From contig JADFIJ010000009.1 in NCBI GenBank assembly GCA_022566775.1, positions 1-32,839 on the forward strand: a stretch of 32,839 nt of DNA, in the 5' to 3' direction. Source of the DNA: Pseudomonadota bacterium. GTDB taxonomy: Bacteria > Pseudomonadota > Gammaproteobacteria > Pseudomonadales > Pseudohongiellaceae. Of this stretch, positions 19,604 through 32,656 are shown in pieces (position 1 is the stretch's first letter; each line of letters starts with the position of its first letter). The translations under genes were made by a program, and so were the position numbers. Under the pieces are notes generated by a model. It saw only the letters and a list, made by a program, of their open reading frames with translations, searched no databases and was not told where the DNA came from.

Positions 19604-20743
19604 ATGAAAAGATTAAAAATTCTCGGCTCCCTCGTTGCTGGTCTCTTGATCAGCGGTATCGTCGGCGCTCAGGGCGCGACGGTGCTCTATAACGAGCGAG
19701 TCATCGAGGTGGCGAATACTCTCCCGGATGCAACCGATTTATGGGTAGCTCCGGAGGATCTCACACGAATCAATGATTTCGTCCTGAAACCTGAAGGCGC
19801 CTGTCTCGATGCGCTCTGCATTCCAGTGCTACAGGATCGGGATAGCGAGATGTTTGTGCGGCGCTCGGGTCAGGCCTGGTTCAATGTGACGGTCCTCGCA
19901 GACAAATTGCAGCAGGCCCATGTCACCGATTACGAAGATGGCATCTGGAGCTTTGGTGTCATGCCCCTGGAGCGAACACCTTTTCTCAAAGGTGGTATAG
20001 CCCCCGATTTTGAACTCACCGATCGTGACGGTAAACTTGTGAAGCTATCTGATTTCCGTGGTAAGAAGGTACTCCTGCTTACCTGGGCGTCGTGGTGAGG
20101 ATGTAGATTAGACGTGCCCGTGTGGCAGGCAATCTACGAAGAACTCAAGACCAACAATTTCGAAATAATCTCCGTCGCCCAGGATTCGGGTGGCGAAGCG
20201 GCAGCCGGCCCAATCTTCGACGCGGCCAATGTCAGCTATACGGCGATTATCGATGTCAATCATCACATCAGCGCGCTGTACAATCTGGTGAATGTTCCTT
20301 CGGGAGTCTGGATCGACGAAGAAGGCAGGATAGTCCGGATTAACGAAGGCACTTACGCTAAGAATCACGGCAGCTTCGGCACCGATGAATATGCGCCCAT
20401 CGTTCGGGATTGGGCAGTAAATGGCGCCGATAGCCCCTACGTGTGGGATAAGGACCAGGTGCTGGAACATATTTTCCAGCGCACAGAGGACGCAGAAAGA
20501 GCGCAGCCAGCCTTCTTGTTGGGCACGCACTACTTCACCCACGAAAACGAGGAAAAGGCAGAGTATTACTGGACCATGGCGCAGGAACTGGACCCGGATA
20601 GCTGGAATTATCTGCGCCAGGACCTGCTCTACGAGGAAGGCGGATCGGCCGGACCCGAATGGCGCGCAAGACGGAGCGCCGAAGAGGGTCGGGGTGAGAC
20701 CTATTATGCTCCCCTGGAAATTGAGGAACAGGTCAATCAGTAG
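19604..20743 (+). CDS. Redoxin/TlpA-like protein, probable selenoprotein (in-frame TGA = Sec165)
   Basis: Read through the TGA at 20096-20098, the frame gives a 379-residue exported protein: signal peptide (about 1-23), an N-terminal domain with C67 and C72 (EGACLDALCIP), then a thioredoxin-fold redoxin from about 140 (APDFELTDRDGKLVKLSDFRG) and a helical tail. The active site reads WASW-TGA-GCR, codons TGG TGA GGA TGT AGA, so the stop sits where TlpA-like proteins have the nucleophilic Cys and Cys167 is two residues on. Downstream residues (LDVPVWQAIYEEL, IISVAQDSGG, NVPSGVWIDEEG) are a normal redoxin continuation, and the frame is open for 214 more codons. A SECIS-like hairpin begins four bases after the TGA. 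Ribosome binding site GAGGTGAG precedes 19604. The rival explanation is a single nonsense mutation of a Cys codon. Confidence 0.8.
20099..20137 (+). promoter_or_regulatory. Candidate bacterial SECIS element
   Basis: Directly after the TGA: GTAGATT (20103-20109) pairs perfectly with AATCTAC (20131-20137); inside, TGCC (20115-20118) pairs with GGCA (20124-20127), leaving a 5-base apical loop CGTGT (20119-20123). The loop starts 21 bases after the TGA and has G at its second position. Small apical stem, G early in the loop and this spacing are the known traits of bacterial SECIS hairpins that bind SelB. The hairpin lies in coding sequence, also as in bacteria. Confidence 0.72.
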
Positions 20744-24409: not shown

Positions 24410-26629
24410 ATGAAAAAAATAAGCAGACGACGATTCATTTTAACCACGGCCCTGGTTGGCGGTGGGGTATTAATTGGCTACTCGGCGACCCGACCCAGCA
24501 GACACCGACTGGCAAACACCGAACTGGCCCAAAGCGGCGAGCACTATGTCACCTCTTTCCTGAAAATCGAAGCCGATAATACGGTCACCATCTACGTGCC
24601 CCATTCCGAAATGGGACAGGGCGTGCATACCTCGCTGTCCATGATGGCTGCCGATGAGCTTGATGCCGATTGGGAGTTGGTCAAAATCGAACAGGCGCCG
24701 GCGATAGATCTGTTCGCCAATGGCGACGTAATCAAGGGCTTCGCCAGTGAATTTGGGGTGCCAAGCTTTCTCGAAGGCCTGGTTAGCGTCAGCGCCATAA
24801 AGGTTGCCGAACTGATGAATATGCAGATCACCGGCGGCAGTTCTTCGGTGCGTTTCACCGGGGAATTTGGCATGCGCACCGCAGGCGCAGCGGCACGACA
24901 AATGCTGATCGAGTGTGCCGCAACCCGCTGGGGTGTGGCTGCGGACGAATGTACGACGCAGTTGAGTCACGTGCACCACAACGCCAGTGGCCGCTCCCTC
25001 GCCTATGGCGAACTGGCGGCCGATGCGGCGCTGCTGGAACCACCGAAAGATCCGGTATTAAAAGACCCCTCCCAGTTCACCATCATGGGCAAGGCAATCT
25101 CCCGCGTCGATATTCCCGCCAAGGTAGACGGTTCTGCCATTTATGGATTAGATGCGAAGCCTGACGGCTTGTTGTATGCCGCCATCCGATTCGCGCCGGT
25201 TTTTGGCACCAAACTGGTGTCTGTGGATGCCGGTGTCGTCTTGAACCGGCGCGGCATCAAGCGCATCGTCGAGTTAGAAGATTCCGTCGCTGTGGTTGCC
25301 GACAGCTACTGGCGCGCCAAGGAAGCGCTGAAACTGGTTACCACGGTGTTCGAGGCATCGGATAACGACAGCACTTCCAGCGCCGATATTTATGCTGGCT
25401 TCGAACGCAGCCTCGCCGACGAAAATGGCAGCAAGGTGATGGAACAAGGTGATACCGAGGCGGCGATGGAGTCGGCCGCAGATGTGATCGAAGCGAATTA
25501 CCGGGTCCCCTATCTTGCCCACGCCGCCATGGAACCGATGAATTGCACGGTGCATATTCATGACGACAAGGTGGACGTGTGGACAAGTACCCAAGATGCC
25601 CTGGGCATCAAGGCCAGGGTGGCGAAAATTGCCGGCATCGCCGAAGACGATGCGACTTTTCATCACAGCTACCTGGGCGGTGGTTTCGGTCGACGCCTGC
25701 CGTTCAACTGGAATGTTATCGATCACGCCACCCTCATCGCCAAAGAATTCGACGTGCCGGTGAAAACCGTGCTGAGTCGTGAAGACGATATGCAGCAGGA
25801 CTACTATCGACCCGCCGTTGCCAGTAATTTCAAGGCCGCGTTCGACGCAGAAGGCAATGTGCTGGCCTGGCACAACCGCTTTACCGGCCCGGTACAGACG
25901 CCGGGCGCATCACACATTCCCTATGCGATTGCCAATCAGTCCATTCGCGTAGTCGATGGTGACACCCATGTACCAATCGCTGCCTGGCGTAGCGTGGATC
26001 ATTCGCAGCAAACCTTCTTTACCGAATCCTTTGTCGATGAGATCGCCCACCGTGCCGGTAAGAACCCCTATCAATTCCGCATGGAACTGTTGCAACAGCA
26101 CCCTCGCCATCGCAAGGTGTTGGAGGTGGCGGCCGAGGCTGCGGGCTACGGTCAGAATCTGCCGGAAGGTCGGGCGCTGGGCATCGCCGTGCAGGAAAGC
26201 TTTGGCAGCATCGTCGCCGAAATTGCGGAAGTATCGATCGGCGACGACAACCAGGCCGTCGTACACAAGGTAACCTGTGCCATCGACTGTGGCTGGGCGG
26301 TTAATCCAGACACGGTGGAAGCCCAGGTGGAGAGCGGCATTATCTTCGGCTTAACGGCTGCGATGTATGGTGAGATCACCATCGAAAACGGCCGCGTTGC
26401 CCAGAATAATTTTCCGGACTACGAGATGGTGCGGATGGCGACTTCACCGGAAATCGAAGTGCATATCGTCGAATCCGGAGAAGCACTGGGCGGGCTGGGT
26501 GAACCTGCGACGCCGCCTATTGCCGCTGCCGTGACCAACGCGATCTATATTCTGACTGGACAGCGAGTACGGGAATTGCCGATTAAGAACCACGATTTTT
26601 CTCGCGTCAATCCTCTAGCCCAGGTTTAA
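24410..26629 (+). CDS. Molybdopterin-binding subunit of a xanthine-dehydrogenase-family enzyme (IorB-like)
   Basis: Catalytic subunit of 739 residues. The N-terminus is a Tat signal (SRRRFILTTALVGGGVLIGY), so the folded enzyme is exported to the periplasm. Then come the aldehyde-oxidase a/b hammerhead region (about 215-320) and the molybdopterin-binding domain, with YLGGGFGRRLPFNW near residue 420 and AWRSVDHSQQTFFTESFVDEIA, seen through its AWRSVDHS core, near 525. The end carries the conserved [19 protein letters not shown] with the active-site Glu. No FAD domain. A diverged copy of the last 50 or so codons lies at 32427-32587. No XdhC-like maturation factor is adjacent. Confidence 0.93.
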   Translation: MKKISRRRFILTTALVGGGVLIGYSATRPSRHRLANTELAQSGEHYVTSFLKIEADNTVTIYVPHSEMGQGVHTSLSMMAADELDADWELVKIEQAPAIDLFANGDVIKGFASEFGVPSFLEGLVSVSAIKVAELMNMQITGGSSSVRFTGEFGMRTAGAAARQMLIECAATRWGVAADECTTQLSHVHHNASGRSLAYGELAADAALLEPPKDPVLKDPSQFTIMGKAISRVDIPAKVDGSAIYGLDAKPDGLLYAAIRFAPVFGTKLVSVDAGVVLNRRGIKRIVELEDSVAVVADSYWRAKEALKLVTTVFEASDNDSTSSADIYAGFERSLADENGSKVMEQGDTEAAMESAADVIEANYRVPYLAHAAMEPMNCTVHIHDDKVDVWTSTQDALGIKARVAKIAGIAEDDATFHHSYLGGGFGRRLPFNWNVIDHATLIAKEFDVPVKTVLSREDDMQQDYYRPAVASNFKAAFDAEGNVLAWHNRFTGPVQTPGASHIPYAIANQSIRVVDGDTHVPIAAWRSVDHSQQTFFTESFVDEIAHRAGKNPYQFRMELLQQHPRHRKVLEVAAEAAGYGQNLPEGRALGIAVQESFGSIVAEIAEVSIGDDNQAVVHKVTCAIDCGWAVNPDTVEAQVESGIIFGLTAAMYGEITIENGRVAQNNFPDYEMVRMATSPEIEVHIVESGEALGGLGEPATPPIAAAVTNAIYILTGQRVRELPIKNHDFSRVNPLAQV

Positions 26630-26947: not shown

Positions 26948-27277
26948 ATGCGCCTTGCAAATAGGTCACCAGCAGCCATAGCGAATGAGCTTGGTGATAG
27001 ATTGAAACAAGCGAGATTAAATAACAATCTCACTCAAGTAGAAGTAGCAGAGCTAGCCGGCGTCACCAGAAAAACCGTTCTAAATGCAGAAAAAGGCAAA
27101 GTTCAGATTGAAGCTTTTATTGCGATCATGTCCGCACTGAACTTAACCGAGCAATTAGATAGATTTCTACCTAAGCAGGATATTTCACCCATTCAACTTT
27201 CCAAACTACTGCGTAAGACCCGCCAAAGGGCATCTGGTCGAAGAAAGACCAAAAATCGGGAAGCTTCCGAATGGTAA
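26948..27277 (+). CDS. HipB-like antitoxin, XRE-family HTH
   Basis: DNA-binding antitoxin of 109 residues. The helix-turn-helix runs from about residue 12 to 70 (GDRLKQARLNNNLTQVEVAE, then AGVTRKTVLNAEKG as the recognition helix). The tail is basic (RKTRQRASGRRKTKN). Its last codons overlap the hipA start by seven bases, so the two are made together. It would neutralise the HipA kinase and repress the operon, as known for E. coli HipB. AAGGA lies six bases before the ATG. Low GC and codon use unlike the flanking genes suggest the pair arrived by transfer. Confidence 0.88.
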   Translation: MRLANRSPAAIANELGDRLKQARLNNNLTQVEVAELAGVTRKTVLNAEKGKVQIEAFIAIMSALNLTEQLDRFLPKQDISPIQLSKLLRKTRQRASGRRKTKNREASEW

Positions 27278-28587
27278 TGGAAGTCGTCAAAATAAATTAC
27301 GAGAACCACCAAGTGGGGGCTGCAAGTTTTGACACAGATACCGGTGTAGGTGCGTTTGAATACCATACCGCTTTTATTGAACGCGGTATCGAGCTAGCCC
27401 CGATAAAGATGCCACTAGCAAAAAGAATCTATTCGTTTCCTGAACTTGATTATGAAACATTCAAAGGGCTACCCGGACTAATAGCAGACTCACTACCAGA
27501 TGATTTTGGTAATGCCGTCTTAAATGCCTGGGTTGCAGGAAAAGGTGAGCAGCCAAAAGACATAACACCGCTTCAAAGACTGCAATACACCGGCAAACGG
27601 GGAATGGGGGCGCTTGAATATTCCCCTGCAACCAAGCTGAAAAATCTTAACGTTTCTCAGCAAGTCGAAATTAGGTCGTTGGTCAATATTGCTCAGGAAA
27701 TACTGACTACTCGCTCGGAATTTAATGTTGCATTAAACAAAGGTGGGAAAGAAGATCGCGAAGCAATGTTATCACTTTTATCAGTAGGCACGAGTGCAGG
27801 CGGCGCACGTCCTAAAGCAGTGCTAGCCTTCAACGAAGACTTTACTCAGGTTCGCTCAGGTCAGGCCAACATACCAAAAGAATTTACTCACTACCTCATG
27901 AAGTTTGACGGCGTAAGTGAGCACAATAAGGACAAAGAAACCTTCGGCGACCCTCTTGGATATGGCGCAATGGAATATGTTTATTACCTCATGGCCAAGA
28001 GGTGCGGGATTAATATGATGCCTTGTCGGCTACTGCACGAAGGAGACCGGCAGCACTTCATCACACAGCGATTTGACCGCAAGGGTAATGAAAAAATTCA
28101 CATACAAACTCTCAATGGGTTGGCTCATGTCAACTACAAAAACCCAGGATCATTTTCCTATGCAGAACTATTTGGCATAGCCAGAGAGCTACGACTCTCG
28201 GCGATCGAAGCCGAACAGCTATTTAGACGCATGGTTTTCAATATCGTATCCAGAAACCATGATGACCACTCTAAGAACTTTGCATTTTTGTTGACCGGCA
28301 CCAAGTGGTCACTGACCCCAGCCTATGACTTAGCCTACAGCTATAAACCAGGCAGCAAGTGGGTAAACAGTCATTGGATGAGCCTTAACGGAAAACGGGA
28401 TGACTTTTCCCGCCAGGATTTCTATTCTCTTGAAAAACTCAGCCCTTTATTCACGCGAAAAAAGATCAACAACATGATAGATGAAACAATTGATCATGTA
28501 TCAACATGGAGGCGCCTTGCGAAAGAGCATGACATTTCGGCATCTTTTATTGATAAAGTTGAGTCAAATTTGAGACTTTTTTTATAA
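27271..28587 (+). CDS. HipA-like serine/threonine kinase toxin
   Basis: Toxin of 438 residues, the usual HipA length. The N-terminal domain (about 5-130) includes LPGLIADSLPDDFGNAVL; the kinase core (about 155-410) has a glycine-rich loop SAGGARPKAVL near residue 175, the catalytic loop RNHDDHSKNFAF near 330 (Asp and Asn that position ATP and metal) and PAYDLAYSY as the second metal-binding motif. The autophosphorylation Ser of E. coli HipA sits in a different loop sequence, so regulation may differ. E. coli HipA phosphorylates glutamyl-tRNA synthetase and induces dormancy; the target here is unknown. The stop is followed within two bases by the broken TPR-like gene. Confidence 0.9.
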   Translation: MVMEVVKINYENHQVGAASFDTDTGVGAFEYHTAFIERGIELAPIKMPLAKRIYSFPELDYETFKGLPGLIADSLPDDFGNAVLNAWVAGKGEQPKDITPLQRLQYTGKRGMGALEYSPATKLKNLNVSQQVEIRSLVNIAQEILTTRSEFNVALNKGGKEDREAMLSLLSVGTSAGGARPKAVLAFNEDFTQVRSGQANIPKEFTHYLMKFDGVSEHNKDKETFGDPLGYGAMEYVYYLMAKRCGINMMPCRLLHEGDRQHFITQRFDRKGNEKIHIQTLNGLAHVNYKNPGSFSYAELFGIARELRLSAIEAEQLFRRMVFNIVSRNHDDHSKNFAFLLTGTKWSLTPAYDLAYSYKPGSKWVNSHWMSLNGKRDDFSRQDFYSLEKLSPLFTRKKINNMIDETIDHVSTWRRLAKEHDISASFIDKVESNLRLFL

Positions 28588-30262: not shown

Positions 30263-32413
30263 ATGCAGACCAGGTTTAAGACACGACTAATACCACCTTC
30301 GATTGCCGCATTCGCTACCACCATGATTGTTGCCCATGCGTCGCTCATCCCATCGGTAACTGCCCAGGCCACAGCTGCGCAAACAGTCAGCTACACCGAA
30401 ACCCAGGCAGTTGCCGGCAAGCTTATTTACGACGTTAGCTGCGCCAGTTGCCATGGTGTGAATTTGGAAGGTGCGGCGGTAGTTCCGAACTTATCGGGAG
30501 ATGGCTTTGCCGTGAAATGGAGCGGCGCGCCTGTCGCTGAACTGGCCACGAAGCTACGGCAAATGCCGCCGGGTGGTGGCGGATTGAACGAGCAGGCCTA
30601 CGAGGAAATAGCCGCCTATATTCTGGCCTTTAATGGGATAGCCGCCAACTCGAATACACCACCAATCCAGCTAGGCCTGCGATCCGGATATTTGTTACCT
30701 GACATGACGGACGGGAGACAAATTGTTACCACCAGCGATATCGCAGCCGGTGCGGCTGCGGTGCTTGAAAAGCTTAGCCCCGTAAGCGATGACATGCTCA
30801 ATAATCCCCCTGCCGAAGATTGGTTGTTATGGCAACGCAGCTATGACAACCAGGGCTACAGCCCCCTCGATCAGATCAATCGAGAAAACGTGGCCGACTT
30901 ACGGCTGAGTTGGCGCATGCCGCTGCAGGCCGGAGACAATAACCCCGGGCCTATCATCCATGATGGTGTCATGTTTTTCTTTACCTTTCCTGACACCGTG
31001 CTGGCCATCGATGCCAGTAATGGCGCATTGCTGTGGCGTTACCAACACCAATCGGATGTTCGCGCCAGCCAGAAAAAGGGTATCGCACTACACGGCGACA
31101 AGGTTTTCGTCCCCACTTCTGATCTGCATGTGCTGGCGCTGAGTGCAAAAACCGGTGAGCTGATCTGGGATCACGAGATCGAAACCGAGGCGGGGCTAAG
31201 TGGCTATAATCTGAGATCTGCGCCATTTATTGTTGGCGACAAGGTAATGCAGGGAATCACTTCCCTGCGCATCGCAAAGGGTGGTTGGATTATAGCCCTC
31301 GACATCGAAACCGGCGAAGCAGAATGGCGATTCAATACCATACCGCGGCCTGGTGAGCCGGGAGGTAATAGCTGGAATGGATTGCCTATTGAAGAGCGGA
31401 GCGGCGGCTCGGTCTGGAATGCGGGCGCCTACGACAGGGAACTTAATCTCGCTTATTTTGGTGTGGCACCGACCTACGATACCGGGCCACTATTGTATCC
31501 GGTAGATATCGATGGCATTAACAACGATGCCCTGTACACGAATGCCACCATTGCCCTTAATCCGGAGTCGGGTGAACTGGTGTGGTATTACCAGCACCTG
31601 GCGAATGACCAGTGGGACCTGGATTGGGCTTTCGAAAGGCAGATCGTTACGATTCCCTATGGGGGCCGGACTCGAAAGGCGGTAGTGAATATAGGCAAGC
31701 TCGGCATCCTGGATGCGCTGGATGCGGCAAGCGGTGAATACCTGTTCTCTATGGACATGGGCCTGCAAAACGTGGTTTCCGCCATCGACCCGATTACTGG
31801 TTACAAGACCATTAATCCCGAGACGATTCCAAACCCAGAGCAGACCCGACTCATTTGCTCCACTCACTATGGCTCCAAGAGCTGGCCGCCCTCGGCTTTT
31901 AACCCTCGAACCAATCGACTCTATGTCGCTCTCAATGAAGGTTGTATCGAAGCCGGTCCAGAAGGCTACGAACTACTCACCTCCGGTGTCCGCCTGGCTG
32001 CTGCCCTGAACCCTGATAGCAACGGCTATATGGGAAGAATTCAGGCCCTGGATTTGGGACAGCAGCAATTCGCCTGGCGCTATCGTCAACCCAGCCCGAT
32101 AATCAGTTCCATCGTGGCAACCGCCGGCGGGTTAATATTTGCCGGCGATCTGAATCGGACCTTAAGGGCCTTCGATGAAGAGACCGGTGAGATTCTCTGG
32201 GAAACTACGCTTGACGATGTGCCGAGTTCTACTATCGTCACCTATGCAGTCGACGGCACCCAGTATCTAGCAGTTGCGGTGGGTCAGACTTCCTACCATG
32301 TAAATGACTGGACCCGGATGTATAGCCTGTTCGCCGAGCAGGAAGGCATGCCGGTCAACGATTCACCAAAAGGCGGCGCGGCTATTTGGGTGTTTTCGTT
32401 GCCACCGAGGTAG
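30263..32413 (+). CDS. PQQ-dependent quinohemoprotein dehydrogenase with N-terminal cytochrome c domain
   Basis: Periplasmic oxidoreductase of 716 residues from the ATG at 30263 (GGAG seven bases upstream; the extension to 30185 is not a leader). Signal peptide to about SVTAQA (35), then a cytochrome c domain with CASCH (C60, C63, H64) and a probable Met ligand in LRQMPPGG. An eight-bladed PQQ propeller follows from about 180, with tryptophan-docking repeats such as [42 protein letters not shown] and EILWETTL. The DQWDLD segment holds the likely catalytic Asp, while the Cys-Cys pair of methanol dehydrogenase is not seen. The haem is N-terminal, unlike the common C-terminal haem of soluble quinohemoprotein alcohol dehydrogenases. 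The substrate is probably an alcohol or polyol, inferred only from the family. Confidence 0.9.
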
Positions 32414-32426
32414 AATGAACGGTTTT

Positions 32427-32587
32427 GAATCCGGAGAGGCACTCGACGGTCCGGGTGAACCTGCGACGCCGCCTATCGCCGCGGCCGTGACCAACGCAAT
32501 CTATATTCTGACTGGACAGCGAGTGCGGGAATTGCCTCTTAAGACCCCCGATTTTTCCGTGTCTATCCTGTCGCCCAGGTTCAATAA
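32427..32587 (+). pseudogene. Diverged copy of the 3' end of the IorB-like gene
   Basis: The 161 bases match 26471-26630 closely, by eye 80-90 per cent identical. The translated piece [21 protein letters not shown] and [18 protein letters not shown] mirrors the C-terminus of the IorB-like protein. Many differences are at third codon positions (GAA/GAG, ATT/ATC, GCT/GCG, GTA/GTG), so the source was a functional paralogue before truncation. It begins right after the PQQ dehydrogenase stop and ends at the long palindrome. Confidence 0.85.
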
Positions 32588-32656
32588 ATGGGGTCAGGTC
32601 TTGCATGTTAGCACCGTCGGTTGGCGGTGCTAACATGCAAGACCTGACCCCATTTA
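32585..32656. repeat. Long perfect palindrome, 32-bp arms
   Basis: The left arm 32585-32616 starts TAAATGGGGTCAGGTCTTGC; the right arm 32625-32656 is its exact reverse complement; the loop is the 8 bases TCGGTTGG. No mismatch is seen. The outer motif resembles sequences I associate from memory with REP-associated tyrosine transposase (IS200-like) elements in Proteobacteria, but no transposase is in view. It separates the iorB remnant from a partial convergent gene and could also act as a terminator, although it lacks a T-run. Confidence 0.9.

Follow-up and report, generated by a model that had tools for sequence, protein, structure and literature searches.

Are two adjacent open reading frames (ORFs) separated by a single TGA codon two genes, the remains of a broken gene, or one intact gene in which the TGA encodes selenocysteine (Sec)? 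The question is raised by a locus in an uncultured gammaproteobacterium of the Pseudohongiellaceae (assembly GCA_022566775.1), situated in a 32,839-nucleotide stretch of contig JADFIJ010000009.1 that was analyzed in full and is referred to here as the window. The original prediction, made from the nucleotide sequence, was that the two ORFs form a single redoxin gene in which a probable Sec occupies the active site.

A single redoxin gene with an in-frame TGA codon

The mechanical ORF list contains two ORFs at this locus, 19604-20098 and 20114-20743, the second of which starts at a GTG. Translation of frame 1 of the window from 19604 to 20743 yielded 164 residues, one TGA (codon 165), 214 more codons and a terminal TAG. 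The ORF list and the translation thus confirm that the two ORFs share one frame and are joined through one TGA, and that both halves are intact; the coordinates and the description of the gene given in the original prediction were also right. If the TGA is read as Sec (U), the product has 379 residues and the site sequence WASW-TGA-GGA-TGT-AGA translates as WASWUGCR. The Pfam domains AhpC-TSA (6.9e-16, residues 132-244) and Redoxin (3.4e-14, residues 132-249) each span the TGA as a single domain, which agrees with the predicted location of the codon within a thioredoxin-like active site. The parts of the gene are as follows:

19604..20743, + strand: selenoprotein gene, 379 residues with TGA as selenocysteine (translation, homologs)
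19604..19669, + strand: probable signal peptide, residues 1-22 (sequence inspected by eye; low pLDDT there)
19673..19963, + strand: N-terminal domain, about residues 24-120 (confidently modelled; without a Pfam match)
19802..19804, + strand: Cys67 codon (invariant in 39/39 aligned sequences)
19817..19819, + strand: Cys72 codon (invariant in 39/39 aligned sequences)
19997..20350, + strand: AhpC-TSA/Redoxin domain with a ResA-like thioredoxin fold, residues 132-249 (Pfam, ResA comparison, fold)
20096..20098, + strand: TGA codon 165, selenocysteine reading (TGA in homologs of both collections)
20102..20104, + strand: Cys167 codon, partner in the U-x-C pair (invariant in 39/39)
20103..20137, + strand: stem-loop, probable bacterial SECIS element (position after the TGA, pairing, conservation)
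20450..20689, + strand: C-terminal helical region, about residues 283-362 (structure model)

Cys67, Cys72, Sec165 and Cys167 make up the entire Cys/Sec content of the protein. In alignment A3, which consists of the window sequence and 38 of the 80 kept loci described below, all four positions carry Cys or Sec in 39/39 sequences, which represent several phyla. The TPR_2 domain matches 21 of these 39 homologs, as counted per protein with no region of the match given.

The TGA codon is conserved among homologs

Homologs were collected from two sources. The first comprised 58 genomes from the host's genus and order, the window's own included. The full-length protein was identified in 17 of them (16 of the 37 genus genomes and one of the 21 from the wider order), and TGA was present at the position of codon 165 in 17/17. 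In the second collection, of genome contigs, 210 relatives were confirmed and the 80 most similar loci were kept, of which 75 have TGA, four have TGC and one (L079) was unscored. The latter, which contains several stops and apparent frameshifts, was excluded from all counts, while the truncated L104 was left out of the tree, the stem count and the automatic codon count, and its TGA was read separately. Since 13 of the 17 genus and order records are also present, with identical sequence, among the 80 loci, the merged collections comprise 84 distinct records: 79 with TGA, four with TGC and the unscored one. By record title, the kept loci belong to Gammaproteobacteria, Acidobacteriota, Planctomycetota, Actinomycetota, Chloroflexota and others, and the relatives of the host in the tree include an uncultured Pseudohongiella. 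One relative with the gene (L093) is a named strain, Candidatus Litorirhabdus singularis IMCC14734. On the 79-row tree, a quick tree with some long branches, the Sec and Cys states require two changes.

The peptide patterns used in the scan lie away from the TGA, so the search did not favor TGA over Cys. Because the 80 of 210 loci were kept in order of similarity, Cys forms may be more common further out. The proposed search for homologs with Cys or TGA at position 165 turned up both, overwhelmingly TGA. The expectation that relatives have a redox Cys at this site holds for the ResA-type relatives but not for the nearest ones, among which Cys is the exception.

A TGA within a gene might also stem from an error in sequencing or assembly, or from a mutation that disabled the gene and left a pseudogene, and the draft assembly is indeed fragmented (299 contigs) and simple gene calling yields two fragments. 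However, the identical TGA is found in 79/84 distinct records, and a codon shared by dozens of genome assemblies is very unlikely to be a sequencing error. Moreover, the median pN/pS relative to the window sequence is 0.225 before the TGA and 0.204 after it (uncorrected proportions, with synonymous sites near saturation), which indicates comparable constraint on both sides of the codon; the relaxed selection in the downstream half that would have spoken against the original prediction was not seen. Given the shared TGA and purifying selection on both halves, error and pseudogene were rejected for the family, and for the window gene we consider such an origin of the TGA exceedingly improbable.

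We also considered that the TGA is a functional stop, yielding either a 164-residue product with the full protein made by rare readthrough, or two separate proteins. UGA readthrough at a low level is known in bacteria, and a GTG start is located 15 bases 3' of the TGA. Such a split would, however, divide the redoxin domain right at the active site, and Cys replaces the stop in 4/80 loci. Furthermore, TGA is the sole stop codon found at the site among the scored rows, and the host carries both tRNA-Sec and SelB. We therefore regard a functional stop as very improbable. General reassignment of TGA was likewise rejected, since TGA terminates 6 of the 28 window ORFs taken as genes and is thus not simply reassigned. 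The best explanation, in which we have high confidence, is one intact selenoprotein gene.

A conserved stem-loop follows the TGA

Synonymous codon identity was analyzed in 16 same-genus rows, with L017 left out. Over the 13 codons that follow the TGA, it was 0.359 above expectation, as compared to a gene mean of 0.086, and 0 of 100000 random column draws were as high. The 14 highest of the 352 windows of synonymous identity all overlap this 13-codon stretch. Such a sharp rise in synonymous codon identity points to an element at the nucleotide level immediately 3' of the TGA.

The putative element is a stem-loop in which the upper stem pairs 20115-20118 with 20124-20127 (UGCC:GGCA) around the loop CGUGU (20119-20123), which has a G at the second place followed by a U; the distance from the TGA to the loop is 20 nt. 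The four pairs of the upper stem hold in 75, 74, 74 and 74 of the 75 Sec sequences, although invariant Trp and Gln codons account for part of this conservation. The original prediction had named plain-Cys close relatives lacking a hairpin as evidence against it; the close relatives instead carry TGA, followed by a nearly invariant stem. The stem-loop fits the bSECIS model in all four constraints printed in the accessible part of a recent review (PMC13188914). The model is loose, with 4049 of 8301 control codon positions (48.8%) fitting it too, and 1074 (12.9%) fitting a stricter form, so that the fit is weak on its own.

Alternatively, the conservation of the stretch after the TGA may reflect the protein sequence or a different RNA function, with little or no specific hairpin being used for Sec insertion. 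By folding energy alone, the stem-loop does not stand out. When the window sequence was shuffled among synonymous codons, 216 of 1000 shuffles folded as well as the original, and in this test the proportion is under 5% for two of 17 sequences, the other 15 being unexceptional. A second folding test gave a z of -1.71, with 16 of 200 shuffles as good. Because the upper stem hardly varies among the 75 Sec sequences, it receives no support from covariation, and Rfam produced no match above gathering scores in the window; close to the TGA, its matches were all weak (E 1.8 to 8). Against this stand the strong fixation of synonymous codon choice just after the TGA and the broken upper stem in 3/4 Cys versions (L101, L107 and L125, with the stem kept in L099), though the protein changes there too. 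On balance, we find conservation without a specific hairpin unlikely, and prefer the interpretation that the stem-loop is a probable bacterial SECIS element.

Most of the Sec decoding machinery is present in the host

The host assembly (G000) is a draft in 299 contigs and is 86% complete. A tRNA-Sec with a TCA anticodon, a SelB (399.8 bits) and a SelD within a 771-residue open frame were identified, while no match to SelA was found in this assembly. A check of the genome for selA, selB, selC and selD, as proposed with the original prediction, therefore gave a positive answer for all but SelA. SelA is present in the sister genome G058, the DNA of which is about 94% identical to that of the host around the redoxin gene. 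When the 2965-base SelA stretch of G058 was compared with the window's assembly, seven matches of 26-70 bases were all that it gave; since the whole stretch is missing along with SelA, the absence is most simply explained by a gap in the assembly. In a second selB piece (L135, contig C164:2170-3246 of the host assembly), located near a contig end, the sequence is 93% identical to the copy on contig C217, which reflects either a strain mixture or a duplicate.

SelA was found in three of four genomes examined separately, G058 among them, the one without being the genome of L058. Among the 17 genomes that carry the redoxin gene, 14 have SelA, 15 have SelB over the cut-off, 15 have tRNA-Sec over the cut-off and 16 have at least one of these, whereas the gene is present in 0 of the 17 genomes of the same order that lack SelA. 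The exception among the 17 carriers is G019 (85% complete), which has the gene without decoding genes over the cut-off: no SelA, no SelB (E <= 1e-30) and no SelD (E <= 1e-20) were found. The highest tRNA-Sec score in G019 was 46.5 bits, just short of the cut-off of 47, and many relatives show such a score beside a clear tRNA-Sec; this genome counts against the Sec reading. In another genome (G028, contig C40:116-1042), the SelD match has one in-frame TGA and is possibly a selenoprotein SelD itself.

Considering the reading frame, the conservation of the codon and the presence of most of the decoding machinery, we regard it as nearly certain that TGA165 is decoded as Sec.

Structure and proposed mechanism

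A structure model with Cys in place of Sec165 had a mean pLDDT of 87.4. The fold search with this model returned 1472 matches, of which 50 were listed, mostly named thioredoxin-like proteins. ResA was the best among the matches listed (E 3.8e-11), with a TM-score of 0.84 by target length for 1su9_B. The thioredoxin fold is thus shared with the ResA/TlpA oxidoreductases, and the Sec of the window protein aligns with the first Cys of their C-x-x-C motif. The motif itself is absent, in that U-G-C is one residue shorter than C-x-x-C. In contrast to ResA/TlpA, the window protein also has an N-terminal domain with a C-x4-C motif and a C-terminal helical extension.

In the mechanism that we propose, UGA codon 165 would be decoded as Sec by tRNA-Sec and SelB in this uncultured gammaproteobacterium, assisted by the stem-loop that starts a few nucleotides 3' of the UGA. 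The product would probably be exported, and its ResA/TlpA-type redoxin domain would act through Sec165, which would attack the substrate, and Cys167, which would resolve the reaction to give a selenenyl-sulfide, with a U-x-C pair replacing C-x-x-C. The presence of TGA in the relatives, the selection on the gene and the identification of tRNA-Sec, SelB and SelD, with SelA not found, support the reading of Sec165 and Cys167 as a U-x-C pair. The protein is likely a thiol(selenol)-disulfide oxidoreductase or a peroxidase, with the chemistry and the substrate predicted. The Cys67/Cys72 pair of the N-terminal domain probably either passes electrons to or from Sec165/Cys167 or forms a structural disulfide. 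That the protein is an exported selenoenzyme with two centers, in which Cys67/Cys72 and Sec165/Cys167 constitute an internal electron relay, is a tentative suggestion that we consider rather doubtful.

Relationship to known selenoprotein families

We compared the window protein to NCBIfam NF041054 (WAxxUGC_long, "ResA-like WAxxUGC motif-containing protein"), which it matches at an E-value of 4.7e-75; each of the 39 sequences in A3 matches this family at E <= 1e-20. Common to both are the WAxxUGC motif (WASWUGC here), a long N-terminal part and a redoxin core. The window protein differs from the members of NF041054 in its score, 253.1 bits, which is under the curated cut-off of 300. Among 20 relatives scored singly, three pass the cut-off, namely the Cys form L099 and the Sec forms L126 (300.4) and L129 (317.9), while 17 fail, including all three Gammaproteobacteria among them. 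These three place the known family and the branch of the window protein in one tree, and NF041054 is the family of the window protein or its nearest neighbor.

In the literature, as far as the accessible parts of the publications extend, a UGC-containing Prx-like selenoprotein has been described since 2008, when a marine survey listed 46 selenoproteins and 855 Cys homologs in the UGC family (PMC2398784), and reviews from 2022 and 2026 include the family under Prx-like and TlpA names (PMC9312934, PMC13188914). According to the same parts of these sources, the UGC-containing Prx-like/TlpA disulfide reductase family selenoprotein has an AhpC-TSA (pfam00578) or TlpA-like domain together with a UGC motif, which are also the features of the window protein (PMC2398784, PMC9312934, PMC13188914). 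Based on this match by domain and motif alone, the two are very probably the same. The 855 Cys homologs given in the accessible text of the 2008 survey (PMC2398784) contrast with the 4/80 in our set of nearest relatives. No mention of WAxxUGC by name was found in the literature searched, nor of Pseudohongiella together with selenocysteine or anything closer. As shown by NF041054 and the publications since 2008, the finding is true yet not a new kind: the selenoprotein family is already known, and the window gene belongs to the catalogued family or adjoins it.

Other TGA-containing genes and the Sec trait

Of the 21 AhpC-TSA matches in the host, four have one in-frame TGA, the window gene included. 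The other three (L145-L147) are further redoxin-family genes with TGA:

G000 contig C216:8771-9136
G000 contig C200:5145-5540
G000 contig C148:2150-2512

The TGA contexts in these genes are PKAFTGG-U-TMQC, RSFDW-U-PFC and YRGHW-U-PFC, which we take to be redox positions by comparison with known motifs. By comparison, 0 of 4 matches to the CMD/AhpD family in the host have an in-frame TGA.

Gene neighborhoods of about 5 kb revealed no shared partner gene: among the 25 clusters listed, the widest occurs in 16 of 81 sources, the gene and its antisense ORF aside. Elsewhere in the window, 32304-32633 repeats a 27-residue stretch near the C-terminus of a large ORF (24410-26629), and two adjacent ORFs at 26948-28587 presumably resemble an XRE-type regulator and a HipA-like kinase.

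Implications

The present analysis extends the known family by a branch from Gammaproteobacteria that scores under the NCBI cut-off, and by a second pair of invariant residues, Cys67/Cys72, which together with Sec165/Cys167 accounts for all Cys and Sec of the protein. Because simple gene calling splits such genes and the branch falls below the NCBI cut-off, genes of this branch may appear in annotations as fragments. SelA is found in 31 of the 37 genus genomes, yet formate dehydrogenase alpha (TIGR01553, E <= 1e-50) was found in 0 of 25 genomes (the host's own and 24 of the same genus), which makes redoxins of this kind candidates for maintaining the Sec trait in the genus. The invariant second Cys pair provides a direct handle on how a U-x-C redoxin is recycled; if the relay is true, one chain would do a job that usually needs a separate reductase partner.
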